In this document: positions 17,056-41,277 of the stretch, one piece after another
Layout: every line of letters starts with the position of its first letter
How positions within the stretch are numbered: the stretch's first letter is position 1
Assembly: GCA_961205875.1 (NCBI GenBank)
Contig: OY540812.1
Coordinates: forward strand, 8,866,001-8,930,000
DNA: 64,000 nt
Direction: 5' to 3'
From: Sialis fuliginosa
Taxonomy: Eukaryota; Arthropoda; Insecta; Megaloptera; Sialidae
Made by a program: the position numbers and the translations under genes
The notes under the pieces: generated by a model
Databases searched by the model: none
What the model saw: the letters and a program-made list of their open reading frames with translations, nothing else
What the model was told of the DNA's origin: nothing

Positions 17056-17059
17056 GTAG

Positions 17060-17250
17060 GACATTTTCAGGAAAGTCGTGGCCCTGGCCAGCTGGCCGTC
17101 TAATCCCCTATATTCTCGTACATTATCGAGATTATATGTAGATATCCGTTTATAATGATTGAACGGTACTGCGTATTGATCGATGCAATGACTGTAGGGC
17201 ACTGTGTCCCGGACGTAGGGGTGAAGACTTTAGGGGCTGTTCAATTTTAT
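17060..17250. promoter_or_regulatory. GC-rich island with OTX/Bicoid-like site and 12-bp palindrome
   Basis: GGCCAGCTGGCC (17086-17097) is a perfect palindrome containing an E-box-like CAGCTG. Next to it, CTAATCCCC (from 17100) matches the K50 homeodomain (Otx, Bicoid, Pitx) consensus TAATCC. ATCGATGCAATGAC and GTGTCCCGGACGTAGGGGTG follow. This dense, complex sequence in A/T-rich DNA suggests an enhancer. It is not coding. Confidence 0.35.
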
Positions 17251-19718
17251 GTTGCGTTCACATAGACAAGTGACATATAATCGAATACAATACGTGGGTA
17301 ATAACAATGTGTATGCGACATACATAACACACATCCATACATATTCATATGATTCGAAATCGTATCGAATTTCTGAAAATATTTTCGACATTAAAAAAAA
17401 AAAAAATGATACTGAAGGTAGAATGTATTTTAATGATTACTACTTCCAACGTGTTGAAGTGTTAACATTCTATTTAATATGTATGTTTTTATTATATAAT
17501 TGCATTTATTAACACTTCGTTAATTGATATATCTTTAAAAAAAATTTTAAATGGTTGTTTTTTTTAATGATATTAACTTTGACATATTAAATTTCATTTT
17601 GACGTTTGCATAAATTTAGATTTACGTAGATTAAAATTGTCACAAAATTAAAAATATCAGAAAAAATAATCACGTGCGTTTTAAGAAAAATTTCAAACTA
17701 ATATTTTTTAATAAAATTGTATAAAAATTAAATGGTTAACCAATTCCAGGCAATTTATCTAAACACTATTGGTTTTTATTTAAATTGTTCAATAATTAAC
17801 TAACTTTGGTGAATTTAGCACGAGGAAGCACTGTGCATTTACTTAGCAGAAGTTTTTTTTAGTATCTATCAAATTAAACTTTATAGCAAACTCATTATAA
17901 AGGTAATAAGATGAACACCTGTATTCTACTTTGTACAAAACCATTAACAAATTCGTATAATGTATTAAACCGAGTAAACATATTTATCTCTTTACTCTTT
18001 TTTTGTTCATCTGTTCAAAAGCAGTTGTTAATTATAAAATAACACACATCATTTAACATATAATAAAATTTAAAAATAATATTCCGAGTGGTAAATTTCA
18101 ATAAATCAACATGTCGTCGTCTTTATTACATTACTCACTACATGTGTCCTAGGTCCGGAGTTTGTTTCGGGTAGTTTAACATGAGTTCAATTAATTTATC
18201 TTAAATGATTTATGTACAACTCAACCTTCAATTGTAAAAGTTAATAAAATTGCAATTTTTAATAATAATATATTTTTTAAAAGTCGTATTAAAATTACGA
18301 AAATTACGTTAATTTCATATACCCACAAAAAATTTCGTATACTTAAAAAGAATTAAAAATTTTACTATCGTCAAAAAATTGCATATTGAAATTATATCAA
18401 TTCTGAGAACATTCTCTGGCCATAACAATTTTTTTTCCAAAACTGATTGATGACTTTTGTAGATCAAACGTTGGACGAACATTTTTGACTTTGACACAGT
18501 TATTTGCGATCAAAACAAAAACCACACTTTCAACATTGAACGTAAAAAAAATCCAAGGATATATTTGACAAGCTGAAAGTTTTATCAGAGATATAAAACT
18601 AAAGCAAATTTAAGATAAAAATCTTATCTACAAATACCATTCGTTAGATTTAGTCAAAAAAAATTACGATGACCCGTGGAGCTCTCAAATTTGTGTAAAA
18701 TTTCTATTTTATTTTTACTCTTACGATTATAAAAAAATTCAGCGAACCTTTTTAATTATCAAATTCGTAAATATGTATAAAAAAACATTATCTGGTAAAG
18801 AGTTCAAGACCTAAGCTTAACTGAAAAATGAGATATTCTATATAAATAAACTTAGCATTACATAAACCACTTTTTTAGAAGTACTGGTTTAAACACGTGT
18901 TGAAAATACAAGAATGCAAAGTAATTATACTGTCTATTTCGTGGATGATTTAATTTGATGGAAGAAGTCAATTAATTAAACTGGATGTACTAATGCTTGT
19001 TTCGATTCTCTTAGGCATAAAGAACAAAAAAGGATTCTGAGAATAAAACAAAAGAGCTTCCATTGTAAGTATATATTTTATCAAAATAAAGTTTAAGGGA
19101 TACATGTAAAAGAATATATATATTCTTTCGTAACTTTCCAATAAATATTCAATCGATATGCATACGTAAAATAAATATCTACCTATATCAAGTTTATTTA
19201 ATATGTATTTATATACATATATTTTATTTGCGTATTATTTAGATATCCTTAGTCAAACAAGACAGGTAACATAATGTCAACTCTAGAGAGAGAATATCAT
19301 GTAGGTTTCAGTAAATGGGTCAAGTAAACTTTGGGCTGAATAATGTAAAATAAATATTTGACAAATACAGGTGAGTGAACCATAACCGTCAGAAAACACT
19401 CGAGAAGACTCGCTTTCCTCAAACTCTCACTTTTGTAAGTAATCGGGATGTCGTTTTGTATTTCATAAGGCAAAATTATCACATTGATAATGGATGAATA
19501 ATATTTATACGTGGTAATTTTCTCTAAGTACTTATACTTTGCAAAATAACATAGATTTTAAAATTGTTGGCCTAATTTATCGTAAGTTGGAGCGACCAAC
19601 TTTATTTATTTGTATTGAAAATTAAACTATTTTCATCGATTTAAAATATATATATACATTATACGTATCTAAAACAATTATAAATATTTATAAAAATATT
19701 TTTGAAATCGTCTTTTTG
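17251..19718. other. AT-rich non-coding stretch
   Basis: No gene or transposon end is recognised over about 2.4 kb. The 87-codon frame at 17249 has a biased (N/Y/I-rich) translation and no domain. Confidence 0.5.
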
Positions 19719-19977
19719 ATAGCTTTAATTTGATACCCATCATCAGGGGTTTTGATTTAAAAAAATGTTTTCATCTATAACAAATATCAGTCTCACGGCT
19801 GTTTTAATTTAGCTTATGACGCATGGACAATCAAGATGAATTTAATGATACCTCATTTGTTGAAATCGGTCAAGTAGTTAAGACTCTACGAGGAAACAAA
19901 TGAATTCATATACATACAATACATGCATAGACTGCCAAAATCATAACCCTCTTTTAGGTCCACGAAGTCGGTTAATA
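19719..19977 (+). mobile_element. Worn LINE-type 3' tail
   Basis: The segment 'gaaatcggtcaagtagtt' is followed by a cATACATACA-type stretch, 'agactgccaaaatcataaccctc' and 'cgaagtcggttaat'. This resembles the 3' untranslated tails of LINEs and their SINE partners in moth and butterfly genomes, before an A/T-rich end. No reverse transcriptase sequence is seen. It touches the MITE at 19978, so one probably inserted beside or into the other. Confidence 0.4.
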
Positions 19978-20230
19978 ATAATATAAAGAATTTGCTTGAA
20001 TGCAAAAGCAAATTAGCTTCCAGCCAACGCTATCTGCTAGGTATTAAATATAAATGACAACACACTCACAAATGTAGCGAATGAAATCGTACATTTGATA
20101 ACCTTGACCCATGCGCGATAAGTACAATCAGCTGTGCTGCCAATATTTAGCATTTCATAACAATTTGACACCTAGCAGATACTGGAAGCTAATTTGTATT
20201 TGCACTCAAGAAATTCTTTATAATACCGGG
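19978..20230. mobile_element. MITE, CGGTATTATAAAGAA family, copy 1
   Basis: The right end TTCTTTATAATACCGGG is the inverse of the left end ATATAAAGAATTTGC, and arms of about 45 bases match (CAAATTAGCTTCCAG against CTGGAAGCTAATTTG). The interior has CCTTGACCCATGCGCGATAAG. Related copies are at 45759-46053 and 52233-52484, which share the ends, the AGATAGC/GCTATCTG words and an 'accttaacgcttgcgcgttaag'-like core. It is non-coding. Confidence 0.75.
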
Positions 20231-21300
20231 TAGTAGTCGATTAAAAATAGTTATTTTAGTAATAGTTCAAAAAAATATGTGTGAACAGTGTACACTAATA
20301 TAAATGAAACAGAAAAACAATACAATATTTAAAATTTGAAAAATTTATATTTTTCATATAATATATACATATAACGTATACAGAATATTTAATACAACGC
20401 TCTGAAATGTGATATTTATACTCCAGTTTGACAGCTTAATGTAAACTTTCATTCAAAAAGTAACAAAAAAGTAATTTCAAAACTTGTCATGATACAATAT
20501 AAATTATGTAATGAAACTATGGACGCCGTTGAAAATTTGTTGATATAACTTTTTTTATGTGTCAATACTGAATCATAAAATATGAGGGAAAGTTGATCGT
20601 AAAATGTTAAATGAAAAAAGAAATAAATGAACAAGTTCATATTGACTAAATATCTTCCGAAATACAATTTCCTTTTTTATAAAAAATTCAAAACACATAT
20701 ATTATTTAAACACAATTTTGGACGGCATTTAGAATGTGAAATGTAATTTCAAAAGTAAAGTTAACTGATAAGAAAAAATTAAAAACTATAGTTACAATAT
20801 ATTTTTTTCATTTTAAACTTCCGTATTATTTAAACAAAGTTTTTTTAATATTTAAAAAATGAAATCATAAAAGTATATTTAGAATTATGATTGTAATCTT
20901 CAAATCATGCCCGTAACAGATATAATTAGAAAATCAACACAGAAGTGTCAAAAACAATTTACGCTTATACCAGGTTCTTACTTTTAGAAGATTCATGAAA
21001 ATTGAAACAAGTTATAAAATAATTTTCTGTCTTTTCAAACAAAACAGAAATCATCAAGTTAAATAATTTTTCTAAAATATGAGTGAATTTTAAAGATAAG
21101 GAGTTTAAAATCAAGTAAATTTATTAGAATCAAAATGAGAAAAACCATTTGTAGGAAATATAAATGCTCTCTTTGTACGAAAGTCTCGATAATGCCCATT
21201 ATTCATGCTTTCATCAGACGTCAAAAGAAGGGAAATTGAATTAAAATTTTGAAAGGGAAATGATATTTTCATATAAATAACTGAAACGGAAAAAGACTTA
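20231..21300. other. AT-rich non-coding stretch
   Basis: Nothing recognised. The 72-codon minus-strand frame at 20449 has a low-complexity hydrophobic translation. Confidence 0.5.
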
Positions 21301-21309
21301 TATACTCGG

Positions 21310-21450
21310 GCATAATGAAATTATTTCTATTGTAATCGCGGAGTCATTTCGAGTGTCCTGGGTGTGCGACCCAGGATAGTCTGCTATCTATTAACGGCGC
21401 GGCGTACAGTATATTCTAGTTAATCCGTCTCATTTTCCAGACTTTAAACG
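21310..21450. promoter_or_regulatory. GC-rich island with an 8-bp-arm hairpin
   Basis: TCCTGGGT, then five bases (GTGCG), then ACCCAGGA form a perfect inverted repeat at 21356-21376. AGTCATTTCGAG lies upstream; ATTAACGGCGCGGCGTACAG and TTAATCCGTCTC (a TAATCC site) lie downstream. The hairpin could be a protein-binding palindrome. A regulatory island is inferred. Confidence 0.35.
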
Positions 21451-22130
21451 GATGGAATCATATAAAACTGTAATAATTTTTAGCATCAATGTATTAGATT
21501 ATTTTCTAAAGTACAATAATTATAAAGTTTATTAACCTATATAGAAGGATTGCCGTTTAATATGTATGGCAATTTTATTTAACAGAAAAAGTAATGTCAA
21601 CTTGTACAAAAATTAATGTTACTGAACTGTTTAAAACCAGATTTGACATAATGGTAGTAAACAGTAGACTAATAAACCCAAAGGGTTGCTATTTTTTCCA
21701 ATCCGGTGAATGAGGTATTAAATTAAAAATTCAAGGAATTAAAAAAAAATTGTAAAAATATTTTGTTCTGTGTGATGAAAATCTGAAAAAATAGGGAATG
21801 TGTATAATGATGCCGAAATCAAAAGAAAATTACAGCGCACATCGCACGTACCAACATTTTTTTAAATAATTCAAAATTATTGTAAAAATAATATATGTAT
21901 AATAAATTTATAAGCTAGCTGTTTTCTTATAGACGAACTAGTGGTTCTTAAATTTGCTATATTTAAATTTGACAATTTTTGAAAATGCTTCTTTTTCTAA
22001 TAGATATTAAATTATGTATAATATTTTTTCAACAATAAACAATTTTAGATAATTATCCATTCCACAAATCAATATAATCCATCACAAACAATACACGTCT
22101 AAAAATAATCTCATACAAGTAAACAGGAAT
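21451..22130. other. AT-rich non-coding stretch
   Basis: No feature is recognised. Confidence 0.5.
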
Positions 22131-22134
22131 ACCT

Positions 22135-22385
22135 AACTTTATGACACCTGCCATGCATCAGGTACGACTACACGTCCTCCCTATAATACCTCGCTCATTT
22201 AACGTTAATCTGTATGAATATTGAATAGAGATATGTATGTGAATATGCGTCGCGCTTTCCAAATAGCTCATTACCATTCATCTGAAATTATACGATTAAA
22301 CATTCACATAGAAAACTCTATACTTGTAGTTGTACATAAATGCATGCGCGGTTTAACGACTATAATGCACCCAGTTACTGAATGA
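22135..22385. promoter_or_regulatory. Complex island, candidate enhancer
   Basis: It contains GACACCTGCCATGCATCAGG (with an E-box CACCTG), ACGTCCTCCCTATAATACC, GAATATGCGTCGCGC and GCTCATTACCATTCATCTG, with several ATTA cores. It is more complex than its flanks and not coding. No repeat copy exists in the window. Confidence 0.3.
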
Positions 22386-22627
22386 AAATAAATATATAGT
22401 ATGTATATATATTTTTTCATTTGAATCTATATAAATTTGGTTTTTAATAGATTATGAGCCCTTTATTTTAATAAAGAGGCAGGTCTCTTTTTTGTTATTG
22501 CGAGTTGTTTTAAGAATTTGTGCTTTATATCAAGTTTTATCTAGTGTTATCATTAACTTCTTTTTTTAAATGATCATTCCCCATTTAAAAAAAAAAAACG
22601 GTTCATATGTATATTAAATTTATTCAG

Positions 22628-22691
22628 CCATTGTTTTAATGTCTCCGACAACTCCTGAAAGTTTGTCGGTATGTTTACGGGACACCCTGTA
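22628..22691 (-). mobile_element. Broken end of a mariner-like MITE
   Basis: This is about 64 bases matching the right end of 42966-43707 (TTTTAATGTCTCCGACA, CTCCTGAAAGTTTGTCGGT, ACGGGACA-CCTGTA). No partner end is found upstream, so it is a truncated copy. Confidence 0.65.
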
Positions 22692-22955
22692 TATGTATAT
22701 ACTTCTCAATTTAGAATAAAGTTAACATATCAATAGTCATCGTTATACATATATTATTAATATTGTATTAAATACTACATATTACCTATACCATTAATTA
22801 GCGTCTACAATTTTTAAGAGCGACTATTTCTGCACTTTTATTTAAGCTTTACAATAATAAAAAGCTATAAGTATGAAAATAATATTTAAAATTAAAACCA
22901 AAACACCTTATTCTTATTCATAAAATAATTTAGCAAGTAGCTGTAAGTACCTACA

Positions 22956-23293
22956 TACAGTGTGTTCCAGAAATCTCGAAACGGTCAAATATCTCAAAGA
23001 GGCTAGATTTTCTAGTAAACATATTTACTTAATTACATAAGTTCCAGGGTTTAAGGTAAACTTTTTTTAAACGAAAACTTGTGTTTTTAATTGCGGAATC
23101 TCATTTTCATAAAAAAACTTGTTACTTTTGCTTGAAACTTTCATTCGACTTTAATTTTTTATGAAGAGATTTTTGATTGGAAAAAAAGTTCACGACTCCG
23201 AAATAAGAGATACAGTTTTAGAGAAAATTTTTCAAACAAAACAAACTTTGTTTGAGATATTTACCCGTTTCCAAACTTTTGGGACATACTGTA
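22956..23293. mobile_element. Mariner-like MITE with TACAGTGTGTTCC ends
   Basis: Left TACAGTGTGTTCCAGAAA matches inverted right TTTGGGACATACTGTA. The arms share CTCGAAACGG(T) and AAATATCTCAAA. TA lies at both borders; the length is 338 bases. Its first bases match the scheme of the other TACAG...GTCC elements in the window, but the interior is different. The 92-codon plus-strand frame from 23161 runs out of the element and is not taken as a gene. Confidence 0.75.
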
Positions 23294-23934
23294 CATGTAC
23301 ATTATTAGTAATATATCATTTGGAAAATACATATGTATATATAGACAAATTGTTAGTACGTTTAATGTGGTCTAAGGGTGATGTCTTTATGTTCAAGAAA
23401 TATGAGAAGGTATTTGAGTTGAAGATGGTTGAAACATAATATTATAATTAGTTTCAAATTATGTACTGTAGGTACATATGTATATCTATTAACAAGTGTA
23501 GCTTGCTAATTAATACGGTACAATATACATAGCAAAACATATATCTCCAAATTGGTATGTTTTCAAATCATCTCCCATGATTCCTATTCGAGAACACAAG
23601 TTATAACATGCTTCATTAGCTATCTTGTGTATTAATCAGTATCTTAGTTAAGTATAGAACATATATAAATATATATTGCACTTATGTATTGTACAAATGT
23701 ATGTATATCACTTATAGAAATTTACAATTTATAAATGTACTTCGGTGAAAACAATTGAGTCATAAATCATATTACAAAGTTTAAATGTTTTTTAATCTTA
23801 CATTAGAATTTATATAGATATTTATATTATCATTGTTATAATTCACATGGAGAGAAGATAAATTATGGTTTCAGTGGCATTTGTAAATATATGATTAATT
23901 AACAATAGAAATTAAATATTTAAAATTGAAATAA
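23294..23934. other. AT-rich non-coding stretch
   Basis: No feature is recognised. Confidence 0.45.
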
Positions 23935-24160
23935 ACATAGCCATAAAATAATTAAGCAAAGCTTTAGTCACTCGTCTGTAATTCAATTTATATGATCAAT
24001 TAATGGTTTAATGAAATGAATAATCAATCGGTTTTATTAGTTACTAATTAAAGCTATGTAATTATTTATCATTTGATTAATTATATATATAATTTGACCA
24101 TATTATATGTCATTATAAATTAATAATTACATTTAATTAATATTTTAATTAATAAATAAT
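23935..24160. promoter_or_regulatory. Dense cluster of homeodomain-type TAAT sites
   Basis: Within about 220 bases there are many ATTA/TAAT cores and several TGAT-plus-TTAAT words (ATGATCAATTAATGG, AATAATCAATCGG, TGATTAATTATAT, ACTAATTAAAG). These fit paired, Hox/Exd- or LIM-type homeodomain sites. Because the window is so A/T-rich, such words are common by chance, so this is only suggestive. Confidence 0.25.
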
Positions 24161-24775
24161 TTCTACATTTATTTTTAGACACGGAACTAATATTTAACAT
24201 TAATCTGATTAAATCTTTTGCTACTGATTTTCAAAATAATTCCAAATAAAACCATTGTCAATAATAACATTATTACATATTTTATGTAGTTAAGTAATTT
24301 ATTTAAAGTTTCAACAATTTTGATATGTGAGCTAAATCAAATTAATTAAACTATCAAAATGTATTTATTGCAATTACAAAATTTTAAGCAGATATGTTTT
24401 GTTTCAAATCAACATTTTGTATCGTATGTATTTTCCCCTATTGCATTGAAAAAAATTTCAAATATTCTGATATGGAACTTATCTGTCACGAGAACGGCCG
24501 TTGTACAAAACCGTCAGGACATGACTGATCACTGAATTGGTAAATACCTCCACCCCACAGTCAAACCCTTTAGGTCATAGACCAGTAAATTCATATATAC
24601 GGGTTATATAGCAATATAAATAATTATCAGAAAAACAGTACCTAATTAGATATTTTCTATTGTTGTGATTTACCTTCTACATATAAATTATTTTTAATTA
24701 AATATTCTCACTGATGGAAAATATTATTCAATTTCATTTCAATTTTTATTTTTGATTGAATTTTTCATTAATATC
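24161..24775. other. AT-rich stretch, small complex patch at 24480-24600
   Basis: No gene is seen. The patch GTCACGAGAACGGCCGTTG... is GC-richer than its flanks and includes the palindromic word AACGGCCGTT. Function is unknown. Confidence 0.4.
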
Positions 24776-24783
24776 CTATAATC

Positions 24784-25211
24784 CAGCGATTCTCAACCTG
24801 TGGGGGCGCCCCCCTAGGGGGGCAAGATAAAACTAAATGGGGGGTGCGAGCATATCGATAAAAAATGAGAAAAGATATTATTAAAAAATGTATTTAATTT
24901 ACTGAAAGAAACGCTATAAAATACATTCTGACATAATAAAAATAAAATACGCGTTTATATTTACACTGATATTATTAATATACATATTTATAAATAGGAT
25001 TGTATCAGTACTGCACAATGTATTTAATAAATAACTGATCAATATTAAATCAAAAATAAGATTAATAATAATTATTAGTGATTCCCTTGGGTCTGTCTTG
25101 CAGATAAAAGTTTTTCTAAAGAAGGTTAAATAAAATTATTGTATGAGGGGGGGGGGGTAAGAATTGTGATTGAAAATTGGGTCGCAAATACTAAAAGGTT
25201 GAGAAACGCTG
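24784..25211. mobile_element. hAT-type MITE with 8-bp target duplication
   Basis: The ends are CAGCGATTCTCAACCT and inverted AAGGTTGAGAAACGCTG. CTATAATC flanks both sides (24776-24783 and 25212-25219), the 8-base target duplication of hAT transposons. The interior has a C/G-run hairpin (GGGGGCGCCCCCC at about 24803), a G run near 25147 and GGGTCGCAAA before the right end, as in many hAT MITEs with these termini. No transposase frame exists. The perfect duplication argues for a fairly recent insertion. Confidence 0.92.
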
Positions 25212-25219
25212 CTATAATC

Positions 25220-26017
25220 TTTAAGAACCTATTTAAAGTATAAATTATTGGAAATTTACCACATAACTTTAAAAATCTATTTAAGCAGGTTAGCTACAGA
25301 CCTACAATATCAACTGTGTAAAAACAATTTTTTTATTGAAAAAAATATTATTTTCTATAAAATTATTTTTTGCATCATAAATAATACTTGATGACATCAT
25401 CTCATCGGCTTCAAAACATTTTTTTTTATTTTAATTTTAAGTTAGAACTAAACTGATGGCAATAGGGGAAACGGTTTGGTTAATAATAATATTGTAACCA
25501 CAAACACACAAGCGCGCGTCAAAACAATGTAACGTTTATCTAAAGTTTTAAGTTAAGAATCTCGTTAGAATTATGAATGTCTTGTATAAATTTGAGGTAA
25601 ATTTAACTATTTTAAATATTTAATCAAATATCATAGAGTTCGGCCCTGTTCAACGAGAGTTGGCTGATATAATAAAAACAACGAGAAGTTATCGATCATA
25701 TTAATTCCCTGATTGTGCAGAAAAAGGATTGATGAATGAGGATAATTTTTCAGGCAATGATTAAAAATTATATATTTATGAGTTTGGTATTAAAATGGAA
25801 ATCCGTTTTCAACAGTTCGTAGCTAAAATAATGTTTTTTAATTTTTATTTTAAAATAAAATTTCAACGTGAAGGTACATTAAAAAATATTTTTGTATTAA
25901 AACGATTTTATACAGATATATTCTATAGATTTTTTTTGTAAATTTATTCGATCATATTTTGCATTAAGTTCAAGAAAATAAATTTATAAATCTTTTCTTA
26001 CGATCCTTTAAAAATGA
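25220..26017. other. AT-rich non-coding stretch
   Basis: No feature is recognised, apart from AT-rich tracts and a small complex patch at 25490-25560. Confidence 0.45.
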
Positions 26018-26465
26018 ATTTAACCCGAACCCGAATCGAACCGTTTTTTTCAAAGTTAACGAACCTGAACCTGAATCTGAACCTTTTCATGGATAACTGG
26101 TAACCATATATTTAAAAGGTTCAATAAATTATTTTTAATATTTTTCTCAAATCCACTACTAAAATTTATATATTTTTGACTTTCTTTTTTAATTCTATAA
26201 CTAAATTATATTTTAATTTGCAAAAAAATCTGAAAAGTGAAGATTTCAATCTTTAAAATGTAATTTTATTTCTTGTCCTTTTTTCTAGCCATATTTTAAT
26301 GGCTATTAATGTTTTTTCTTTTTCAGAAAATATTTTTTTTTAATTATATATTTTTTCAATTATAAACTTGGACCCAAACCCGAACCTGAACCCTGAAAAC
26401 AAACCCGAATCAAAATTTATATTTGAGCCCAAACCAAACCCGAACCATAAATAAATCCCGGTTCA
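26018..26465. repeat. Degenerate GAACC / CCCGAA repeat, two clusters
   Basis: Two clusters of hexamer-like words (AACCCGAACCCGAATCGAAC at 26020-26045, 'gaacctgaacctgaatctgaacc' to 26085, and again 26368-26460) are separated by about 280 A/T-rich bases. The same strand bias holds in both. The unit is neither the insect telomere repeat (TTAGG) nor a dinucleotide microsatellite. It may be an old tandem array split by an insertion. Confidence 0.6.
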
Positions 26466-26589
26466 ATCAATTGCATCTTATTAAATCATTACCCAATAAA
26501 CTATATAGACATATAAGTATCAATAATTTCGTTACACATTTCAACACGTGTATAACAAATAATACGCTTTGAAGATGTTATTGAGCAAG

Positions 26590-26830
26590 ATACATTTACA
26601 CAACAACAATGAAACACAATATTGACCACAATACCAATACAACAACAATATCAGCTAGAGTTAGGGGGTATGTGTCGACCACGCCATAGTCACCCCTTTC
26701 CGTCATGTAAACAATGCAGTCGCGGATAATACAACAACATATGTATGTTGAATAGCCAGCGGTCATTCGAGGTGGCCGGACCCCCGCAGAGATGTGGCGG
26801 ATAAACAAATGGGCGTCAACAGTTAGCTAG
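26590..26830. promoter_or_regulatory. GC-rich island, candidate conserved non-coding element
   Basis: It contains AACAACAACAATG-type stretches, GGGGGTATGTGTCGACC, ACGCCATAGTCACCCC, GAGGTGGCCGGACCCCCGC and GATGTGGCGGATAAACAAAT (with a forkhead-like TAAACAAA). A 70-codon minus-strand frame spans it, but its translation has no recognised family and ends in a simple hydrophobic run. Regulatory function is more likely. Confidence 0.3.
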
Positions 26831-27752
26831 GTAAATAGATTCATTACTAACCATTATCAGTATCGGATCTGACTTCCCAATAACATAATCTACATGCTGA
26901 ATGGTGATTATTTGGGAATAATGTATTGGTTATAGATCACAATGAGTATTTGTACATTAGCATTGGTGTTATGTTTTATTATAGCATGTATTAAGTAATA
27001 AACTAATCTAATGTGTTCAATAGATGCAAATAGCATGACTTGGACATAAAATGCACACCCCTTAAACTTTTTAAAATGTATTAATTAATAAGGTTATCAA
27101 CTTTGACAATTTTAGTAAGTACATTAATTTGAAAACATAATAATTAAATGACATAACCTCACTTAATAATTATATTTTTTCTTACATTGATCCGTCACAA
27201 AAGAATAAATAAATACAAACGCCGAAAAAAGTATTCCACAAATAATAAATAATACTTATATTTATCATAATTAATATTTCAGAATTAAAAATATTCAATT
27301 TCAACAAAAAAAACTCACTTTATGTACCAAATTTTATAATAACTATTTATCGTTAGTTGTGTACTTCATATTCATTTATATATTTTTATAAAAAGAAAGT
27401 AATACATATGAATAATGTCTACAATTTATTTTGACATTTACTCTAAACGTTTACAAAAATAAAAACTAAAACACAAAAATATTATAGCATTACAGAACTA
27501 GGTATTCAGAGATATGTACACAATTACATTATAATTTTATATCAGATACAGTTCGTAGAAGAATAAATGAGACAAACATTTGCTATTGTTTACGGTAAAT
27601 ATAAAACAAATAACATAGTTTAATATAAATAGTATATTTAATAATATTTGTTCGTCGAGCAAATATACGTTTGTATCATTCCTTCAACAAAGAAATTAAC
27701 TTTTTATGTAGGTATATATGTTTTATCATAAAAATAAGTTACATAATTTTTA
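26831..27752. other. AT-rich non-coding stretch
   Basis: No gene or element is recognised. TTCCCAATAA and TTATTTGGGAA near 26873-26917 form a small inverted pair. Confidence 0.45.
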
Positions 27753-27756
27753 TATA

Positions 27757-29552
27757 TGAGCATTTCCAGTAGTTTTTTAAAAAACAGGGCGCACGTATGT
27801 CACCGATTTTGCTCCCAATTTTTTTTCTCAAAGTACATATCAAAAAAACATGTTTCCCAAAATCTTTTCCCCCCGCCCCCTTTTTTGGCCGAATTACGAT
27901 TTTTTAAACTTTTGAAATCGAGCGAAATTAGACAATTTTTGATAGTACCTTATTTTTCAAAATGTACCTTATTATACATGTTATAGGGCTCATTTTCTTC
28001 GTTTTTTGTTGATCTTTCATTTGAAATCGGTTTCAGAGCCGAATATTCAATTTTGGCCGAATGCGGTACCAAAACATTAAGTTTGATTTTTTGTAAAAAT
28101 AGTCGATTTTGAAATTGCCGCCAAATATTTTGGTTTCAACCAAAATACTTCCGGTATAGGTCATTTTATTCTATTTTTTATGTAGTTTCCAAATATTTAT
28201 ACATTTTTTAATTTGGTCAAAAACTTTTAAAGTTACACTTGTTTTTAGATGTCTTATTTTTCAAAAAACGCTATATTCACACCATTAAAACTTTTTTCTC
28301 TATACTCCAAATTGCACCAAATTTTGGCAAAAGTTTCCCTTCTTTATTCTTAAAACAACCCTTAAAAAACATTTTTTCATATTGAGCTCCTAAGTGAGAT
28401 ATAATTTTTATAAAACACCTAATTACTCGTGTATTAAAGATAAGAATTTACAGGAATTTTCAGTGTTTCTGAAATATCGGGGCTCCTGATAATCGAATAA
28501 AAAATATACCACTTAATTCGTTATGAAATTCCCTACAAATCTACATAAGTAAAAAAAATTTAGATTAATTACAAAACCTACAAATAAATAAAAACTTTGT
28601 ACATCGATTCCTAATTTATTTAATAACAACTTTAAATGTAATAGTGTCTCATAACTTCGTTGTTTAATAGGTATGTATTCATTTCTAAGACTGGCTCGCT
28701 TGCGCTCGCTCGGCTTTTATTTTTTTATAGGTTTTTTAATTAATCTAAAAAAAATTAACTTATGTAGATTTGTAGGGAATTTCATAACGAATTAAGTAGT
28801 ATATTTTTTATTCGATTATCAGGAGCCCCGATATTTCAGAAACACTGAAAATTCCTGTAAATTCTTATCTTTAATACACGAGTAATTAGGTGTTTTATAA
28901 AAATTATATCTCACTTAGGAGCTCAATATGAAAAAATGTTTTTTAAGGGTTGTTTTAAGAATAAAGAAGGGAAACTTTTGCCAAAATTTGGTGCAATTTG
29001 GAGTATAGAGAAAAAAGTTTTAATGGTGTGAATATAGCGTTTTTTGAAAAATAAGACATCTAAAAACAAGTGTAACTTTAAAAGTTTTTGACCAAATTAA
29101 AAAATGTATAAATATTTGGAAACTACATAAAAAATAGAATAAAATGACCTATACTGGAAGTATTTTGGTTGAAACCAAAATATTTGGCGGCAATTTCAAA
29201 ATCGACTATTTTTACAAAAAATCAAACTTAATGTTTTGGTACCGCATTCGGCCAAAATTGAATATTCGGCTCTGAAACCGATTTCAAATGAAAGATCAAC
29301 AAAAAACGAAGAAAATGAGCCCTATAACATGTATAATAAGGGACATTTTGAAAAATAAGGTACTATCAAAAAAAGTCTAATTTCGCTCGATTTCAAAAGT
29401 TTAAAAAATCGTAATTCGGCCAAAAAAGGGGGCGGGGGGAAAAGATTTTGGGAAACATGTTTTTTTGATATGTACTTTGAAAAAAAAAATTGGGAGCAAA
29501 ATCGGTGACATACGTGCGCCCTGTTTTTTAAAAAAACTACTGGAAATGCTCA
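27757..29552. mobile_element. Giant near-perfect palindrome, foldback-like element of 1.8 kb
   Basis: The left arm starts TGAGCATTTCCAGTAG. The right arm ends CTACTGGAAATGCTCA and repeats the whole left arm in reverse over about 840 bases, with only scattered single differences and small length changes in A runs. The loop is about 28596-28714 and includes GGCTCGCTTGCGCTCGCTCG. TATA lies immediately outside both ends (27753-27756, 29553-29556), which fits a TATA or TA target duplication. The arms are non-coding (homopolymer-rich), so the 76-codon frame at 27756 is a shadow. A transcript would fold into a hairpin with about 840 paired bases. I do not recognise the superfamily. Confidence 0.85.
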
Positions 29553-29556
29553 TATA

Positions 29557-30395
29557 CATTTTTTTGTATACATTTGAACATCAATTTTTTTTTATTCTCA
29601 ATTGTATAAAAATTTGAAATGATATTGTTAACCCTTGTATTTGTCGTTGATACTATAGTATTAGGTACTAAAGTTCTTCAATCATGAATTTTTCAGATTT
29701 TTTGAGCTCGTTAGTACCTACTTATTAAGATAGAAGGGAAAAAAATACATTTTATACCCCACATGCTTAGATATCACGACAGTGAGATTAATTAGGTTGT
29801 AGTCCTAAACTCTAGATAGGAGATACGCAAAATGTAATTACTAAAGAACTTAAGTCGTTCTTGGCTAATGTATGTAGGACTATTCGAAAAACCGCAATTA
29901 ATGTTTTTAAAGACTACTAGTCAACGACAAATTTAGCATTACCCCACCACCCAAATATTATTATAACTTTTACAACATTCACTCCAAAATAAACATAACA
30001 CTCAAAACTAAGCTTAAACTTTACAACAACGCGTAATAAAAATAACAAATTGATCCCACTTTAGTAGAACAGACATAATACAGTACGTATACTGCGATGA
30101 TGAAGACAGAAAAATAACACACATCACGGTGGTTTTCTTGGAGCGTAATCACCCGTACCTACTTGTGTATGCATGTTTCAATTACATAGATCCTCATTCC
30201 TTACTTACCATTAGATTGCTTCTCGTTTCTTGCTTTCATATCGTTATTTCGACTGCACTTTTACATATATACGTATTTTGTTTCGGGCGTGCAATTTCAA
30301 ATGTATGTAATATTATGTGTACTTATATGATCCAAGAAAGTATAATTTATACCTATGTATACTGTTTTTTTTCAAATGACAAGTAAATATATGTA
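29557..30395. other. AT-rich non-coding stretch
   Basis: No gene is seen. The part near 29850-29920 (AAGTCGTTCTTGGC, ACCGCAATTAATG) is mildly complex. The 85-codon frame at 30129 shows no domain. Confidence 0.4.
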
Positions 30396-30401
30396 TATGC
30401 A

Positions 30402-30799
30402 TTAGGGTGGGCCAATTTTCCAACCGATCTCGGCTACCCCCTAACGTGAAAGTACTATTAATTATAAGAAAAAAACCTCTACATTCAACTTTAGTTCGGC
30501 GCTTTTTTGATTGAAAATTTTAAGTTTTTTTTCCAAAACTAGCGCTAAAAAATGGATGTCAAATTCGGAATCCTCGTACCAAAAAACCCTTGGGTTGGTG
30601 TTTTGCTTAAAAAAATCAATGAAAAATTTGTACATTTTAATGTATATTAACATACATACATATTGAATTCAAGGGATCAAACTAAAAATAATATATAATA
30701 TAGTTCCATGGGTGTTTTTTTTTTAGAATTGAAAGTACTTTCACGTAGGGGGTAACCAAGGTTAGTAAAATTCCTTCCATACAATTTGACCCACCCTAA
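30402..30799. mobile_element. MITE with TTAGGGTGGG ends and 6-bp target duplication
   Basis: The left end TTAGGGTGGGCCAATTTT is inverted at the right as TTGACCCACCCTAA. A second matching block is ACCCCCTAACGTGAAAGTAC against GTACTTTCACGTAGGGGGT. TATGCA flanks both ends (30396-30401, 30800-30805). A six-base duplication is unusual among common insect DNA transposons and would fit an IS3EU-like group, but I cannot confirm that from termini alone. The 63-codon minus frame inside is a shadow. Confidence 0.8.
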
Positions 30800-30883
30800 T
30801 ATGCATGTATAATGTTTAACAAACAACAGACGAAAATTATGATTATGACTTATCAATTACAAATTCCCTAATTATAAAAATTA

Positions 30884-31191
30884 TAAGAGTTTAGACTTAT
30901 GTAATAAAGCCTTGGCACAGAAACGGTCTCCGTTACCGATTCGAATTTGCAAATCTATTACATGTTAGCTTCGTCAAAACGCAGCGCCGTTTCAACGCAG
31001 CTGATATGCCATTTGTATTGAATCACATATAATAGATTTGCAAGGTCGAAGCGGTGACGGAGACCGCTTCTGTAAAGTGCCAAAGCTTAAATGTTTCAAT
31101 TGCAATGCTACACCATAAAAAATGAGACACTGTTTTTAAGACTCTGATGATGATAGTATTGCTATTGAAACACATGTAAGTCTAAACTCTT
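30884..31191. repeat. Outer inverted repeat around a nested MITE
   Basis: TAAGAGTTTAGACTTATGT at about 30885 is inverted at about 31172 as ACATGTAAGTCTAAACTCTTA. The pair encloses the element at 30907-31086. It looks like the ends of an older small transposon into which the inner one inserted, or the extended ends of one element. Confidence 0.55.
30907..31086. mobile_element. MITE with AAGC(T/C)TTGGCAC ends
   Basis: The left end AAGCCTTGGCAC, then AGAAACGGTCTCCGTTACCG, is inverted at the right as CGGTGACGGAGACCGCTTC, then GTGCCAAAGCTT. The arms differ at a handful of bases plus a small length change. It is about 180 bases long and much GC-richer than its flanks. The middle holds a second inverted pair (AATCTATTA against TAATAGATT). 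The superfamily is not assigned. Confidence 0.75.
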
Positions 31192-31719
31192 ACAACTGGA
31201 TTTGTATTTGACGAGACTTTTTTCAGTTTTTATCTCGAAATTAAATTGAGACCGATACGAAATTGGTTTAAATTTTATCCCCATTTAATTATAATGAGAC
31301 GAAACCATTGCTTTTAAAATGTTTTATAGTGAAAATTTTACTTATTATATTTAAGAAACGTCACAGCCCCATTTGATTTACTTCTTCACATTTCGCTAAT
31401 ACATGGCGTAAACACAAAATTTTCGAGAGCATTGTATTGACATTAATACTATTACTGTATATGTTTTAAGATTCGATCTTATCAAACCGGTTTTATCATA
31501 TAATTAAAAAAACGTTTATTAAAAATCTAACCGTCAGTTCTTTATGAAATGTTTATTTTTATTATGATTTATTTCTTAAATATATTAATAACTGAAGAGC
31601 TGTCTTCTATAATAAATATAACAATTCAGTTATTCATATTATATACATACCACTATCTCCCATAAATAAGTAAAACATACATCTTTATTATTTTATATAA
31701 AACCCCATTTCCTCTACTA
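31192..31719. other. AT-rich stretch with GAGAC-type patch
   Basis: Positions 31209-31310 hold GACGAGAC, ATCTCGAAATTAAATTGAGACC and ATGAGACGAAACC, the same motif type as at 3394, 8034 and 63735. The rest is A/T-rich with nothing recognised. Confidence 0.4.
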
Positions 31720-32160
31720 ACCAAAATATACGCGTTCCATCTGGCGCCTCACTGACATACCGTTAAGCATAACTTTAATATCATTGACCTAAAATATTCA
31801 TACTCGACATAAAATCTCACTATCATCATACCAGAAAGAGAAAAAATAATCTAAAATCGCATTCACAAGTACGAGCTCGGGGACTATAATTTACATCATA
31901 TAGCGATACTCACTGACTTTGAGCCTACAATAAGTGTGTAGCATGCATATTGTATCCTAACTTATAATGCATAAGAAACATCTCGAAGGCATTTTACTGC
32001 AAATTTATATAAACGAGATCATATATAAGAGTTATTCTGTAACATGTTTACTCACCGCCCCCCGCCCCCGCTCCCGCCTCCAACAATGGCAATACAAAGG
32101 CGAGCCCACTTTAACTGCCGATGTTATGCACGACATAAAACAAATACGATAGCTAGTTTG
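31720..32160. promoter_or_regulatory. Long complex island, candidate enhancer
   Basis: About 440 bases of mixed composition contain ATCTGGCGCCTCACTGAC, TACGAGCTCGGGGAC, a C-rich tract (CCGCCCCCCGCCCCCGCTCC at about 32055) followed by CAACAATGGCAATAC, and CGATGTTATGCACGAC. The C-rich tract could bind zinc-finger or GAGA-type factors. CAACAATGG resembles a Sox site. A 61-codon frame spans it but is not protein-like. Confidence 0.3.
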
Positions 32161-32400
32161 AATTTATCTTGATATTGAAGACATTATTTTCTATATATTT
32201 TCATGACTTTTTAAACAAAAATAAAATCCGAAGATAAATTTATTGGTCGGGTTATCCTAACGATTCTACAAGGTCATAACTTTTATCTTCCAATTGTCTA
32301 ACTTTCTTGGAACCAATTTTTTCATTGCATTTTATCTAATTTCTTTTAAATGTGAACGTTCAGAGCAATAATAAAAAAAAACATTGTCTTATATGCACAA

Positions 32401-32600
32401 CTAGTTGCCAGACAGCGGCTTCGCACGTGTTGTATTAGTTTTTATGACCATTTATATAAATAATACCATTTGTTGTTTTATCATTATAAAATATAAAGGC
32501 TTTAATTTAACTATCCTTTTTAGATTCTTACGTCATAAAAAGAAGACACCCTTGAATTTTAACGTTTCTGGCTTGAAGAGTTTGAACTTGGTGTAGATGA
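32401..32600 (-). mobile_element. Possible Helitron-like 3' end, worn
   Basis: Read on the minus strand, the end is CGTGCGAAGCCGCTGTC, then TGGCAACTAG followed by T. A CTAG end before T fits the Helitron rule, and a short stem (GCCGCTGTCTGGC) precedes it. No matching 5' end is found, so the inner limit is a guess. Confidence 0.3.
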
Positions 32601-34845
32601 TTCAGTCACTCAGAACTTCTTTCTTTATATACTTTATTTATGGAGAAACATGATGTAGTTGTTTTGATAGGACATTATTTATACCTAAATTGTCAAAACA
32701 AATTTATTTGAAAATGAGTTAGTTTTTCATTATAATAATATGTCTTATACAATATTTGGATAAATATTTTCATGCGAAAATATAAGACATTATTTAAAAA
32801 AAGCTTTGTGAAAGGTCAAACATAACAGCATAAAAATGTATACGCTCTGACAGAGAGTAAAATGTCAACTTAAATTAAAATAACTATAACAAATATACTG
32901 TCCGACATAATACGATAAATGAATAACAATAGTGCAGAAAATATATTGTCTCGTTCTGATTTGTAAAAAGATAACGGGAATTACAAAAATAAGAATGATA
33001 TATGCTCCGTATATCATATTATCCTTCTCTTTTAGTTTGTTTACAACGAATTCCACATCTTCTTATAAAGAGTTTTTCATTATTTCGGAGAAATTGTTAT
33101 TTACAGAAGAAATATAATATCGTTTTCTTTCGAAAGGGGAATCTTTTTGATTGGATATACAGAATTAGTTCCGATATGCTACAAATTAACTTTTTTATTT
33201 TATGTTATTTGTGAGGTTTTATTCGTTTATACATATATTTTATTAATACTAAAATTAATTGTATTTCTAACATACATATACCTAAATTATTTTTATTACA
33301 TAATATTCTATTTTATTTTATATTTCACTCGATTTTAAATTTGAAATTAAAATTATTTTTTCATTAAATATACATTTACTTAATTAACCGTAATTAGGGT
33401 AAACTGCATCAAACATTAATACATACAAAAATTTTAAAAGTGTAAATGGCACTATTTTAATTAAATCACAGAGTTAAATGCAATGTGGAAATAAAAACAT
33501 CAAAAACAACACCATAGCAATCCAATCAACAGATTTGTCTCCGATGTGAAAACGACTGAAGAAATACTGTAAACAAAAATGAGTCTTTTATTCGCTTTGA
33601 AGCATTCAATGGAGTTTTCTTTGACTTGTCGGACATCTCGTTTTCTTGGCACGACTATTCACTCGAGAAAATTTTTAGATTGAAAAGCCTAATATATAAA
33701 ATGTGATAGAAAATATTTCTCGTTGAAAAATAACATCTCGACAAATCAAATCTGATAAAGCCAAGCCAATGTAATGGCACCTGTCACAGGATTGCGACAA
33801 GAGATGGCGGTACGGTCAAGCCAGTTCTCATTCAAAATTTTATTATTTTAAATTTGGTAATTCAGTTTTCCTCTCTTTAACATTATATTTAATTACTTAT
33901 GTATGTCCTTTCATTGAAGAATTTTTTCTTTTTAATGTTAAAATTGGGAGCAGAAAAATTGTATTTGTTAATAATTTTTAATGAAAGTATATAAAAATAT
34001 TTACATCCATCTACAATTTTAAACTATTAGATGGATAGAATGTGTAATATAATATGCTTTATAGTAAAAACTCGGTTTTGAATTGAATGAAACGATTTTT
34101 AGGGTTCCAAAATATCTCGTAAAAAATATAATCTAGAATACTAAATTTATTTTTTGTAATTTGAAGTATCTGTATTAAGTCAAATTCTGCATGCTTTTCT
34201 TTTTCGATATTTTTCGTAAACAGTTTATCTTATGATAAATGAGAAAAGTATATTTTTGTGTATTTTGTGTCATACAGTCTTATTCAGTCTAGTTCAGAAA
34301 AAACAAAAATAACTAAAATCAAACAAAAATAGATAGGCTCACACAACCCTGATCAAAATTACTAATTGATGATACTGGATATCGATAAAACTTATTAATT
34401 AATACTAAACCCTAAATCAAATTTCATAACTGTAGCACAATCGGTTCTCTAGATATTAAATAAAAACTAATTTCGAGTAAAATCTTTTAAAGGCTGTAGC
34501 CCCCACATGAAAAATTTCCGGACACATATTCGTATATTTTTTAATATTTTTCTTAATATACTGTTTAAGTTTGGCATGACAGTGCTGAATCATCCTGTAT
34601 AAAATATGTATTAATAGCCGAAAAATAAACTCAGATACAGAGATAATATAAAAAATACAACTAGGAAATGTGACGTCTCTCTTAGATGGTGTCAATGGCA
34701 CAAAACCCCATTTCCATGTTATCCAAAATAACAACATTAAATAAGTTTCAAATCATTCTATGAATATGCTCATACAATCATATTTTATGATTTGACTTGT
34801 AATCAAAATCCATGGAATGTCCCAGAATAAACATTTCAAAAGGTC
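32601..34845. other. AT-rich stretch with a small complex patch at 33775-33830
   Basis: No gene is seen. The patch TGGCACCTGTCACAGG-ATTGCGAC with AGAGATGGCGGTACGG may be regulatory (E-box CACCTG). Four overlapping short frames at 32865-33338 lie in low-complexity sequence and show no domain. Confidence 0.4.
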
Positions 34846-34875
34846 GCAACCCTATCCCCATGAGGATAGGGTTGC
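34846..34875. repeat. Perfect 12-bp-arm hairpin
   Basis: GCAACCCTATCC, six bases (CCATGA), then GGATAGGGTTGC form a perfect inverted repeat. ACATTT-type words continue the symmetry on both sides (34831 and 34878). It may be the core of a small transposon or a protein-binding palindrome. No second copy is seen. Confidence 0.6.
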
Positions 34876-35029
34876 ATAAATGTGTAAATTAATTAACTAT
34901 AAGGAGAACGACAAAAATCATTTATATTTATTGACCATTGCACTAAAGCTAATTATTTTATTAAATGAAGAAACTTGAAGCTTAATTAATCAAAACGTAT
35001 GATAACGCAATGTCGAATAAAACACAAAC

Positions 35030-35260
35030 AAACAGACGGACGTACATTATTTAAATGGTGTGCACGCATACGCTCTATTCGGTGTAAAGTGTCCGCGCTG
35101 CGTTTGACGTATTAATCATGACGGTGACATCGATGAGCCAATGGACTTTACGTTTAATCGACTACCAGCCCATCGATAAATAACGCAATTAGTGAAATGT
35201 TTTGAGTATAAATATTCTCAGCTGAACGCTATTTCACTCCCGAGTTTTTGTTATTGATTG
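35030..35260. promoter_or_regulatory. Complex island, candidate enhancer
   Basis: It contains GTGTGCACGCATACG, GTAAAGTGTCCGCGCTGCG, GTATTAATCATGACGG, CATCGATGAGCCAATGG (with CCAAT), CGTTTAATCGAC and CCATCGATAAATAACGC. Homeodomain cores and ATCGAT words are combined with higher G/C than the flanks. There is no open frame of note. Confidence 0.3.
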
Positions 35261-38060
35261 CTTTTTGTTTTTAACATAAAGACATCGGGGCTTTTAAAAC
35301 TAATGTATGTGGTAAATGAAAATAAAAAAAATATTGATGTCACTTGATGGAACTGAAATATTAAATAACATTTAGAAATATGGAATTTAAGCTGTTCAGG
35401 TAAATTAATTGATAATTTTCAGAACACAAAACTTATTTTTATTTCTTTTAAGGTAATTCGATCATTAGAGCAATATATATAAGTCTAAAATTTTAATATG
35501 TTATTTATAGATAGCTCATATATTTTACCAATTTTTAAAAATAATATTGGACGTATACTTTTTGAGTAATTGGATATTAAAAATAGAGTTTTTAATACAC
35601 GGTAAATAAGAGAAATCGCCGGAAATTCTCTATTTATTAAAATTCTATACAGAGACGTTTTAAACATTCATTATTCGAAACTTCAACGCTTTTAAATACT
35701 ATAAAAATTATAAAATACATACATTCACGTGTAGTTTCAGAACCACATTTGTTCAAAGTAATGAAAAACTAGAAATATATGACAGCATGTTTGTAAAGAC
35801 GCGTGAAAAAAATCATCCGTAACAGTAATAGTGTGCGACTTACAGGCAAACAACGTGTGCGAGTGCAATAACTAGAGTATAAACTGCGATCTCCAAATTA
35901 TATCTATTTTTTACTTTTATTATTTATTTTAAAAGTCCATTTAATGAACATGTATTCTGCATATAATTTAATAACTGAATTTTTCTAAATCAAATCTTTT
36001 TTTATTGAAAAAATACGGGTAGTTCACAACTAAAGGAGTGCTAGGCCAATAACTTAAAATATCAAAAAAAAAATCATCGATATTCTTACTTTTTGTAGAG
36101 TTGGATGTTTTTATTTCTAAATGTGTAAAATGTGTTAGTTTTTAAAACGTTAAGAAAGAACATAACATATATGTATATCTAATAAAGATTTAATTAGAAC
36201 ATATACACCTATTATTTTATTTACTTAAAATTTTTATTATAGAACTAAAAACAGATAATGTCTGAAACACACATTCTCAACATATTACTAGAAAATGGTT
36301 ACATTAAATACCTGTACAATCTTTTGGCTACAAATTGTATATATGTTTATTTATTAGTTTAATAATATACTAACTACAACTTTAATATAATCCCGCGAAT
36401 ATATTTACATTTCTAACTGTGTAATAAAGATCTGTAGTGGGTTGAAAATATCCACGATGAATTAAATGTCAAGATAAAATCTATCTGCAGCATTGTAAAA
36501 ACACTTTTGGCTTCGCTCCAAGCATGCCTATCAACTTTTATAATGCGTTAATAGGTTTTTTAGTAAAATTCATATTATATAATAAATCAACACTAAACTT
36601 TAAATTATTTCATTTATAGCACATACTTAGCACCTTGTTACAAAAATAACTTTAAAAAGTCTATCTTAAACACAATTATAAATGTTTATAAATAGTTTAC
36701 AAAGTTTACAAAATATGTCGTTTTCTTTAAATTTAACCATAATATTCTTTGTATTTTAAATATTTTTTATTTATATTAAAAGCACGAGTGTCATATTGTC
36801 ATTTAAAATTATTTAAATTTAATTCAAAGTTGTAAAAATAACACAAGTTATAATGTAAATCATAACCTATAAATAGTGTCTGGTGGTGGAGAAATATAAA
36901 AAGGAAAAATTGAGAATTTTCACTTATTATAGAGTAACCACTAAACTGCCCAATGATATTAATTTCATTATTTAGACACTGTTATGCACTAATGTTTCAA
37001 CCAACACAAATATCAATTTTGAGTTATGAATGCAGTTTCATGCAAAATAAAATTTACAACATTATAAAAAATAACTCGTGGTTATAATTTTTTTTAAATT
37101 ATAAATCAACAAAAACACTTTTTTATATTTATTTTTTATTTATTTATATTCTTCAGATTTTAATGGAAGATGTATTTAATTAACCAATTAAACGCAAAGT
37201 TACTTTTTTTCAATAAAAAGAAATGAAATCAACAATTTTTTCCTTGCGCACATCAAAAACTATAATATCTCGAAAAGAGCTTTATATGGGTTAATACATT
37301 AGTGCATAACAGTGTCCAATTTTATCAAGAAGTATTTTATTTAAAATTGATGTCACCTTATATTTACATAAAGTTTTTTTATTTATTTGAAAATAAATAT
37401 TTAAAAAAATATTTATACATGATGGGTACCTTACCTCATTAATATAGAAACCTGCTATACTTATAGTATACAAAATTTTAATTAAAAAAACAGAGTTTTT
37501 CAACTTGACTTATGATTCGTTAGAGCAACATTTTCATAAAGTTTGTATCTATATTCCATAAAAGGCAGAACGACAATTGTATGCACGGTTCTTCAACTGA
37601 CAAATTTCGCATATTTCACGGACGATGTCCCTCTTAAAAACACACCGCCTCTAACAAAAAGCATAATTTTTTGTGGTTTTGTTTATGTCAAAACACATGT
37701 GTGTCTGATGTTGAAACACAAATATGTCTTCACAAAAGAATAATATACAAAAACCATTGTTACTCTGTATTTACATTTTTACTGAATTCGGGTAAAATTT
37801 GATTATTTACAAAATCAAAACAAATATTTTTTGTTCTATTTTTAATTCACGCTTTAATCTGAAAACCTTTAAAGAGAAATTATTGTCCCTACACAAGTAA
37901 ATAATAAAGTATGCAGAATGTAATATATTTATTTTATACTAATATTTCCAAATATTTGGAAGAATTGTTATTTTTAAATAAAATAATGGGGCAAATGAAT
38001 AAACTCATTATAAAATTCGATTTGTCTATTTAAACAGGAGTTTAAAAATAACAAACAATA
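35261..38060. other. AT-rich non-coding stretch
   Basis: About 2.8 kb without any recognised gene, transposon end or motif cluster. Short open frames here translate to K/I/N/F-rich strings. Confidence 0.5.
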
Positions 38061-38069
38061 TGTTAAAAA

Positions 38070-38235
38070 TTCATAGAATGTTACGGCAGGAGCGTACTTT
38101 TAAATTAATTTAGCGAATGCTAATTAATTATTACCAATTTGTTTAGCAATTAGCAAAAATGTTTATTCCGTTTTTCATTAGCGACGATGCATTATTTATT
38201 TGACCATTTATTAATCCGGTAAACATAATTAAATA
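38070..38235. promoter_or_regulatory. Homeodomain-type site cluster
   Basis: GCTAATTAATTATTACC, TTAGCAATTAGCAAAAAT, TTTTCATTAGCGACGATGC and TTATTAATCCGG occur within 160 bases, mixing TAATTA and TAATCC cores with some G/C. This is suggestive of an enhancer; chance is a serious alternative in A/T-rich DNA. Confidence 0.25.
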
Positions 38236-38469
38236 CTATTTATGTATGCTTTATTTATAGATATTCAATAAAACGTTATACTAAACGACTACAAGTCGAT
38301 AACATTTTTTGAGAAAAGCGGGTGGGGTACTAAAAAATGTTTATTCTACATAATTCATTGTATTAGAAACTATCACTTACTTTTTCTTATCGAGTACGTG
38401 TCTTATCTTATTATTCAATATATATATTTTTTTTAAACATTAATATTAATTTATAAGATCCATACTAAG

Positions 38470-38615
38470 GAAACAAAATTTAATAGCATAGGCTTTTAAA
38501 CAGTGAAAGTGCCGTCAAAATCGGTCAGATAAATACTTTTTCATCTATCCAAAAACCACAAAAAATACAAAATATTTAGAATTCACAGACAGATCCAGTT
38601 TATATAAGTATTAAT
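38470..38615 (-). mobile_element. Worn Helitron- or LINE-like relic
   Basis: 'aaagtgccgtcaaaatcggtcagataaatac' and 'acagacagatccag' followed by 'tatataagtatta' resemble, on the minus strand, the 5' zone of the CTAATATTATAAA repeats (complete at 52895). Both ends are lost. Confidence 0.3.
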
Positions 38616-40030
38616 TTTTAAATTAGAATATAATTTTTTTAAATTTCCATTATAAATATTTTATTTTTATAATTTACGCCACTGATATTAAGATTAGAAC
38701 GAAAGTTCCAATACTGAAATACTTATACGTTGAAAGCATTCAATTAATTGTTGTAAATTGTTGACAATTTTTTTTATTATTTCGAATTGTTAACATTGAT
38801 ATTTCACATTGTAATTTATTCGTCCAACAATTTTCAAAGATGCCAAAAAACTAGAACAAAGAGTTCTACTGTCAAGGGTCACTTTGATAATAATCTATGC
38901 GACTAAATACCTAACTGATTTGTATGAAACAAAAATAACATTTGTTGACAAATTTACATTTCAACTAAGTGGTGGTGTCTTTGAAAAAGTATTGTCGAAA
39001 ACTACTGAATCATGTGTGGGTATTTCTGGAAATATTTACAAGAAATACTCTTTGAAGACAAAACTCCATTAGAAAATCGAAACAACTGTTTCATGGATTG
39101 CTGTATTTTAAGAATAACTCTGAATAACTGTCATTTGTTTCCTGTCGAATGTTCGAACTGCATTTGAGCCACTTTACAAAACTACATTTGTGTTTTTAAA
39201 AATGAGGATTTAATAAAATATCTTATTTTTATGATGACATTCAATCGTTTATTTTGGTATTTTATGCAATTTATGTTCATTTTTATTATAACTTTTACTA
39301 TTTTACTAGAAGGGTGATAATTGTTATTAGCGTATATTGAAAATGTTTTAGTTAATAAAATTAATTTATCGTAGTATTAATTTTTTAAATTACACAACAC
39401 ACTTAAGAAGGTTGTTCTATGAACCAAATTGAAGATTAAATTATAATAATTGTTTTATTTGATAGATTAATATTATTGAAATTGTTTTTTATAATTTTTA
39501 CCACATTGTTCTGAAAATATTAAATTTCGAAAATTGTTATTTTAGTATAACCGGTATAGGGAAACGAAGCACGTTGATGCATTATATAGAAAAAAGATAC
39601 TGTTCAAACCAAGTTTAATTTTCGAAAAAAAAAAACCCTTAAAACAACTGCCTCCATATCAACAAAATTATAAACACTTTTTCCGCATCGTTTTTTTGTA
39701 ACAATTAATTTTTGGTAACAGAATCTTTGGTAACGAGAATTGCAAACCAGTTGCGATGGTACACTTTGGTACTATAGTCAAATGAGCGATTGAGAACATC
39801 ATTTATTAACTTGTTTTTGATCTCAATGTATTATTAAATTTAGTATAGGTACATCAAATACAAACTTTTTCATACTTACATTAATTTTCTAATATATACC
39901 TACATACCTACACTTGACTTGTAATTACTAGAACAACTTCCTTAATTTTTTATACGATATTTAAACAGATAGATATTAACTTATAATTATAAATAAATTA
40001 TAAATAAACAATAAAAATAATTGCATATTA
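38616..40030. other. AT-rich non-coding stretch
   Basis: No gene is seen. A patch at 39720-39790 (GGTAACGAGAATTGC, CCAGTTGCGATGG) is mildly complex. Nothing else is recognised. Confidence 0.45.
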
Positions 40031-40032
40031 TA

Positions 40033-41165: not shown

Positions 41166-41277
41166 TGATATATGTACAAAAATAAAAAACTTATTCAATT
41201 ATTTTGTATTTATTTACTATTTTCTTTCATCTCACGAATTATATATAAATTTATATAAATTATCGCAATATAATATT

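Follow-up and report, generated by a model that had tools for sequence, protein, structure and literature searches.

In the excerpts of the literature on which our comparisons draw, long terminal inverted repeats (TIRs), a middle without apparent coding capacity and the lack of a transposase characterize Tetris of Drosophila virilis, an element with target duplications of 8-10 bp for which the authors suggest Mutator (PMC4079207); Tm1 is presented as a Mutator-type foldback, also with target duplications of 8-10 bp (PMC3169594). Galileo, a member of the P superfamily in Drosophila, has foldback-like long TIRs and includes one copy that consists of two TIRs without the transposase segment, and its duplications measure 7-8 bp with the consensus GTATTAC, according to the excerpted account (PMC4168063). 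Target duplications in the excerpt from PMC5199201 are TA for Tc1/mariner and TTAA for piggyBac, and the size limit that we use for miniature inverted-repeat elements (MITEs), 800 bp, comes from the same source. An excerpt from PMC4423592, a paper on a mosquito, counts long inverted-repeat transcripts as one source of endogenous siRNAs and piRNAs.

Here we describe an inverted-repeat element in a 64-kb window, by which we mean the whole stretch of DNA that was analysed. The structure is real and clean, and of an already known kind. Judged from its sequence, the element is most likely a single insertion of a foldback-type DNA transposon (TIR order) of the non-autonomous sort, to which we assign no superfamily; this is the best reading because the ends are sharp and bear TATA, the flanks are unrelated, genes are absent and other foldbacks lie nearby.

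Architecture and coding content of the element

The element occupies 27757-29552 (1796 bp), opening in its left arm with TGAGCATTTCCAGTAG; read directly, TGAGC starts at 27757 and GCTCA finishes at 29552. The arms account for 1675 of the 1796 bp, or about 838 bp per TIR, and their G+C content (0.285) is similar to that of the window. With the flanking TATA counted in, they run over 27753-28593 (841 nt) and 28715-29556 (842 nt), and their global alignment contains 826 identical positions in 842 columns, with 15 mismatches and one 1-nt gap. An inverted repeat finder returned 27773-28593 with 28715-29535 (821 nt, 98%) and listed the outer arms separately (27753-27784 with 29525-29556), the one-base gap splitting them. 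Between 26500 and 31000, 1274 24-mers have their reverse complement within the same interval, and none did in any of 200 dinucleotide-preserving shuffles. The initial annotation, which had described a 1.8-kb near-perfect palindrome at these coordinates, with arms of about 840 bp, a short loop and TATA on both sides, is borne out in each of these respects (Table 1).

Table 1. Features of the foldback element, in window coordinates
Feature	Position	Strand	Basis or remark
Left arm (terminal inverted repeat, starts TGAGCATTTCCAGTAG)	27757..28593	+	98.1% identity to right-arm reverse complement, 842 columns, TATA counted in
Unique loop, 121 nt, one end richer in G+C (GGCTCGCTTGCGCTCGCTCGGC)	28594..28714	.	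Central segment outside the paired arms
Right arm (terminal inverted repeat)	28715..29552	-	Inverted-repeat search and alignment
TATA, left edge: either a target-site duplication (of all 4 bp, or of a 2-bp TA contained in the word) or outermost inverted-repeat bases	27753..27756	.	Direct reading
TATA, right edge, pairs with 27753-27756	29553..29556	.	Direct reading
13-nt A/T-run segment, arm-variant	28550..28562	+	Against right arm: 1 mismatch if inverted, 6 if direct

The same annotation held that the element has no coding frame, and none was found, the longest stop-to-stop frame being 75 aa. Pfam searches in six frames of 27000-30500 returned four families, every one under its curated cut-off, and a decayed transposase finds no place among them: the lowest E value (0.0025, DUF6954) is sub-threshold and was treated as noise. 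Tandem Repeats Finder listed no tandem array inside the element. No transposase-binding array is proposed for the left arm either, as its repeated 7- to 10-mers do not leave the spread seen among 200 simulated sequences (for 9-mers, 42 against 30.8 simulated, sd 10.7).

The surroundings look gene-poor and AT-rich. No Pfam family reached its curated cut-off in the parts of the window scanned, which comprised ten out of the 31 ORFs of at least 80 aa, all six frames of 15001-27500 and 27000-30500, and four of the six frames (three plus, one minus) of 1-15000, 30000-44999 and 45000-59999; the lowest sub-threshold E value was 0.0024, for HC2 in the frames of 1-15000 (18.4 bits against a cut-off of 40). 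Neither an Rfam match at gathering scores nor a tRNA was found in the window. The open frame 40914-41165, with a sub-threshold match to zf-AD (E 0.0087, 16.7 bits against a cut-off of 28), is possibly a fragment of an insect zinc-finger gene. Going by this match, the base composition and the character of the repeats, we would guess an insect as the host.

Edges, target site and comparison with described transposons

The inverted end common to both arms is TATATGAGC, beyond which, in arm orientation, the left side continues with A and the right side with G; the element ends sharply, the flanks outside the shared end are unrelated, and joining them without the element yields an AT-rich empty site. 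When 13 symmetric edge placements were scanned, TATA/TATA was found at 27757/29552, and a 6-bp match, ATTTTT/ATTTTT, appears if the edges are set at 27752/29557. At window composition the chance of matching flank bases is 0.0077 for four bases and 0.088 for two. Since TATA is self-complementary, a single copy looks the same under a 4-bp TATA duplication (the element then starting TGAGC), a 2-bp TA duplication (starting TATGAGC) and an inverted repeat that includes TATA. We rank an ATTTTT duplication below TATA or TA, as it requires non-pairing first and last element bases and involves a T-rich flank. As read from these edges, the target duplication is ambiguous among TATA, TA, the repeat end and the 6-bp ATTTTT.

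Compared by description, the element is like Tetris in its long TIRs, its non-coding middle and its lack of a transposase, but it differs in its duplication, TATA or TA being likeliest here, and in having no tandem array listed inside it. The 8-10 bp duplication of Mutator/MULE foldbacks (Tetris, Tm1) is absent: none of the 13 edge placements gives an 8-12 bp word that recurs with one mismatch or fewer, and the 8-, 9- and 10-bp words at 27757/29552 match at 5, 3 and 5 positions. The likeness to Galileo, again one of description, lies in the long TIRs and in the copy reduced to them; as to a P-superfamily duplication of 7-8 bp, the words at 27757/29552 agree at 1/7 and 5/8 positions, and the nearest 7-bp pair, AATTTTT/ATTTTTT (6/7, edges 27752/29557), falls in a T-rich flank and is unlike GTATTAC. 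The piggyBac duplication does not occur either, the flanking word being TATA and a TTAA pair being absent at all 13 placements. A Tc1/mariner duplication would fit if the element starts TATGAGC, TA being one among several edge readings; it is through such a TA target that non-autonomous Tc1/mariner elements would resemble ours, and at 1796 bp the element is no MITE under the limit of <800 bp. The initial annotation had set it apart in size from the small MITEs around it, which is incomplete, as a second long foldback lies in the same window.

Searches for relatives gave no family. No copies of the element ends other than its own two occur in the 64-kb window at up to 3 mismatches, and blastn found no relative within the window at E values up to 0.001. 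The 16-nt end TGAGCATTTCCAGTAG was met in 24 stretches of viral contigs and 92 of genome contigs, and about 120 chance matches are expected (257 billion bases, two strands, even base composition). Four further arm patterns were sought in viral contigs and gave 1, 0, 0 and 0 stretches, the one (L117) matching over 19 nt only. BLAST of the element and the second palindrome against the 116 end-matching loci plus L117 produced 286 rows, with a best E of 0.003 and a longest alignment of 51 nt, and no extended match. Phages and plasmids queried by blastn with the element, and phages queried with the second palindrome or with the repeat at 7380-7700, returned nothing, and a 30-nt word of 7380-7700 is absent from viral contigs. 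All of these searches addressed prokaryotic, viral or plasmid collections, so that the misses carry little weight. The element's sequence words had no match in full-text literature, and the papers listed on foldbacks and TATA targets offered no family recognised as this one; the annotation had not recognised one, and that still stands for the prokaryotic, viral and plasmid collections.

Origin of the palindrome

If the element is mobile, a transposase encoded elsewhere would recognise its ends (TGAGCATTTCCAGTAG and onward), excise it and reinsert it, with TA or TATA as the simplest target. Further inverted-repeat elements in the window are found at 7263-7871, 41315-41510 and 56008-57469. The last is the second long foldback, with arms of 523-528 nt (98%; 528-nt arms in the longer version), a unique loop of 406 nt and ends CAAGAGCCCGTGAGTGCCAGACC; no direct flank match exceeding 3 bp was found at its 13 edge placements, GCCAGAC occurs in it 4 times on the plus and 3 times on the minus strand, and blastn gave no match between the two long foldbacks.

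The other repeats of the window are of several forms. A 15-bp tandem repeat (TTCGAAAAATTGTGA) forms inverted arrays at 7263-7871, and these enclose inverted arms at 7327-7405 and 7675-7753 (99%), an arrangement resembling a foldback with tandem-repeat TIRs; the loop contains a distinct repeat-like sequence. A segment near 7440-7570 may resemble repeats that are frequent among insects, Lepidoptera included, and its words were found in no viral contigs, phages or full-text literature. The region 41315-41510 forms a compact hairpin with 96-nt arms (90% complementary) and a 4-nt loop. Related inverted-repeat elements lie about 10 kb apart at 2541-3014 and 12424-12977, with common segments 75-91% alike in both orientations. 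An 86-nt direct repeat (48687-48772 and 62859-62944, 95% identical, starting ACAGACAGAC) is a candidate LINE 3' end.

It is unlikely that the host itself generated the palindrome as a long in-place inverted duplication, through template switching or breakage repair and with no transposon involved. Such an origin would accord with the single known copy, blastn having given no relative within the window, and the TATA might match at the two edges by chance (with the four-base probability given above) or belong to the repeat; such a duplication, however, would not require matching words at the outer junctions, where the observed ends are sharp and bear TATA and the flanks differ, and the occurrence of two long foldbacks within 64 kb points to mobile elements of one class.

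The arms could also have been kept for their RNA. Folded as RNA, the complete element has a predicted minimum energy of -1342 kcal/mol, and in this structure 825 of the 841 left-arm bases pair with the right arm, which agrees with the annotation's expectation of a very long hairpin if the element is transcribed, and 672 of 821 21-nt arm windows are perfectly paired. A hairpin-RNA locus that the host keeps for making siRNA, with its arm similarity maintained by selection or conversion, would suit these figures and the naming of long inverted-repeat transcripts as an endogenous small-RNA source in the excerpt from PMC4423592. Such pairing is, however, expected of any long inverted repeat and speaks of potential, not use, the endo-siRNA source proposed in the annotation being hypothetical, and transposition accounts for the edges and the nearby foldbacks without any function; we therefore hold a retained hairpin locus to be very improbable, while noting that it would be compatible with a transposon origin and not exclusive of it.

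Sequencing and assembly are prone to errors in long palindromes, yet a false second arm created by read folding or a chimera is highly unlikely here, as 16 of the 842 columns, irregularly placed, differ between the arms, and the sharp repeat edge, the distinct flanks on both sides and the unique loop are not expected from a fold-back artefact.

Arm differences and possible arm-to-arm correction

For the foldback transposon, the preferred reading, the distribution of differences between the arms bears on whether they have been kept alike. The 16 differences fall at offsets 21, 75, 182, 183, 214, 401, 758, 799, 802-806, 820, 829 and 833; with neighbours merged they form ten events, 4 of which lie inside the innermost 44 of the 842 columns (binomial 0.0012, for a region picked after seeing the data), and the outer 798 columns hold 7 differences (0.9%). 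The variant segment at 28550-28562 (Table 1) is a possible micro-inversion by template switching in a hairpin, a post hoc suggestion that concerns a low-complexity A/T run.

This inner clustering weakly fits arm-to-arm conversion that would fade toward the loop, and also fits an old inner boundary; an edge effect, with the alignment running on into the loop, may contribute as well. In the second foldback (56013-57464) the differences are likewise concentrated at the inner end, with 6 of 9 in the innermost 20 nt, a pattern that could there arise from an alignment extended into unrelated loop sequence. The annotation had read the arm similarity as a sign of a young insertion or of ongoing arm-to-arm correction. 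The first does not follow: arm similarity leaves the insertion undated, since the arms may have diverged before insertion and may have been corrected after it. The second retains a weak fit from the inner-end clustering, and an old inner boundary would serve too.

A more specific proposal places the element in a TATA-specific foldback family in which conversion between the arms preserves their similarity but breaks down near the loop, so that differences, including a hairpin-templated micro-inversion, gather there. On the sequence at hand we consider this quite unlikely, its probability being lowered by the 6-bp ATTTTT reading of the edges. If it were true, the same inner-end pattern in the unrelated second foldback would extend the pattern to elements of this sort in the genome at large.

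The locus adds one clean foldback element to those described. Should its copies in the genome prove to have a strict TATA target, this would contrast with the 7-10 bp duplications of the foldbacks described in the excerpted accounts (PMC4079207, PMC4168063, PMC3169594), and arm-to-arm correction, if many copies displayed it, would likewise add to the significance of the element, the two long foldbacks of the 64-kb window, which are unrelated to each other, making it testable.
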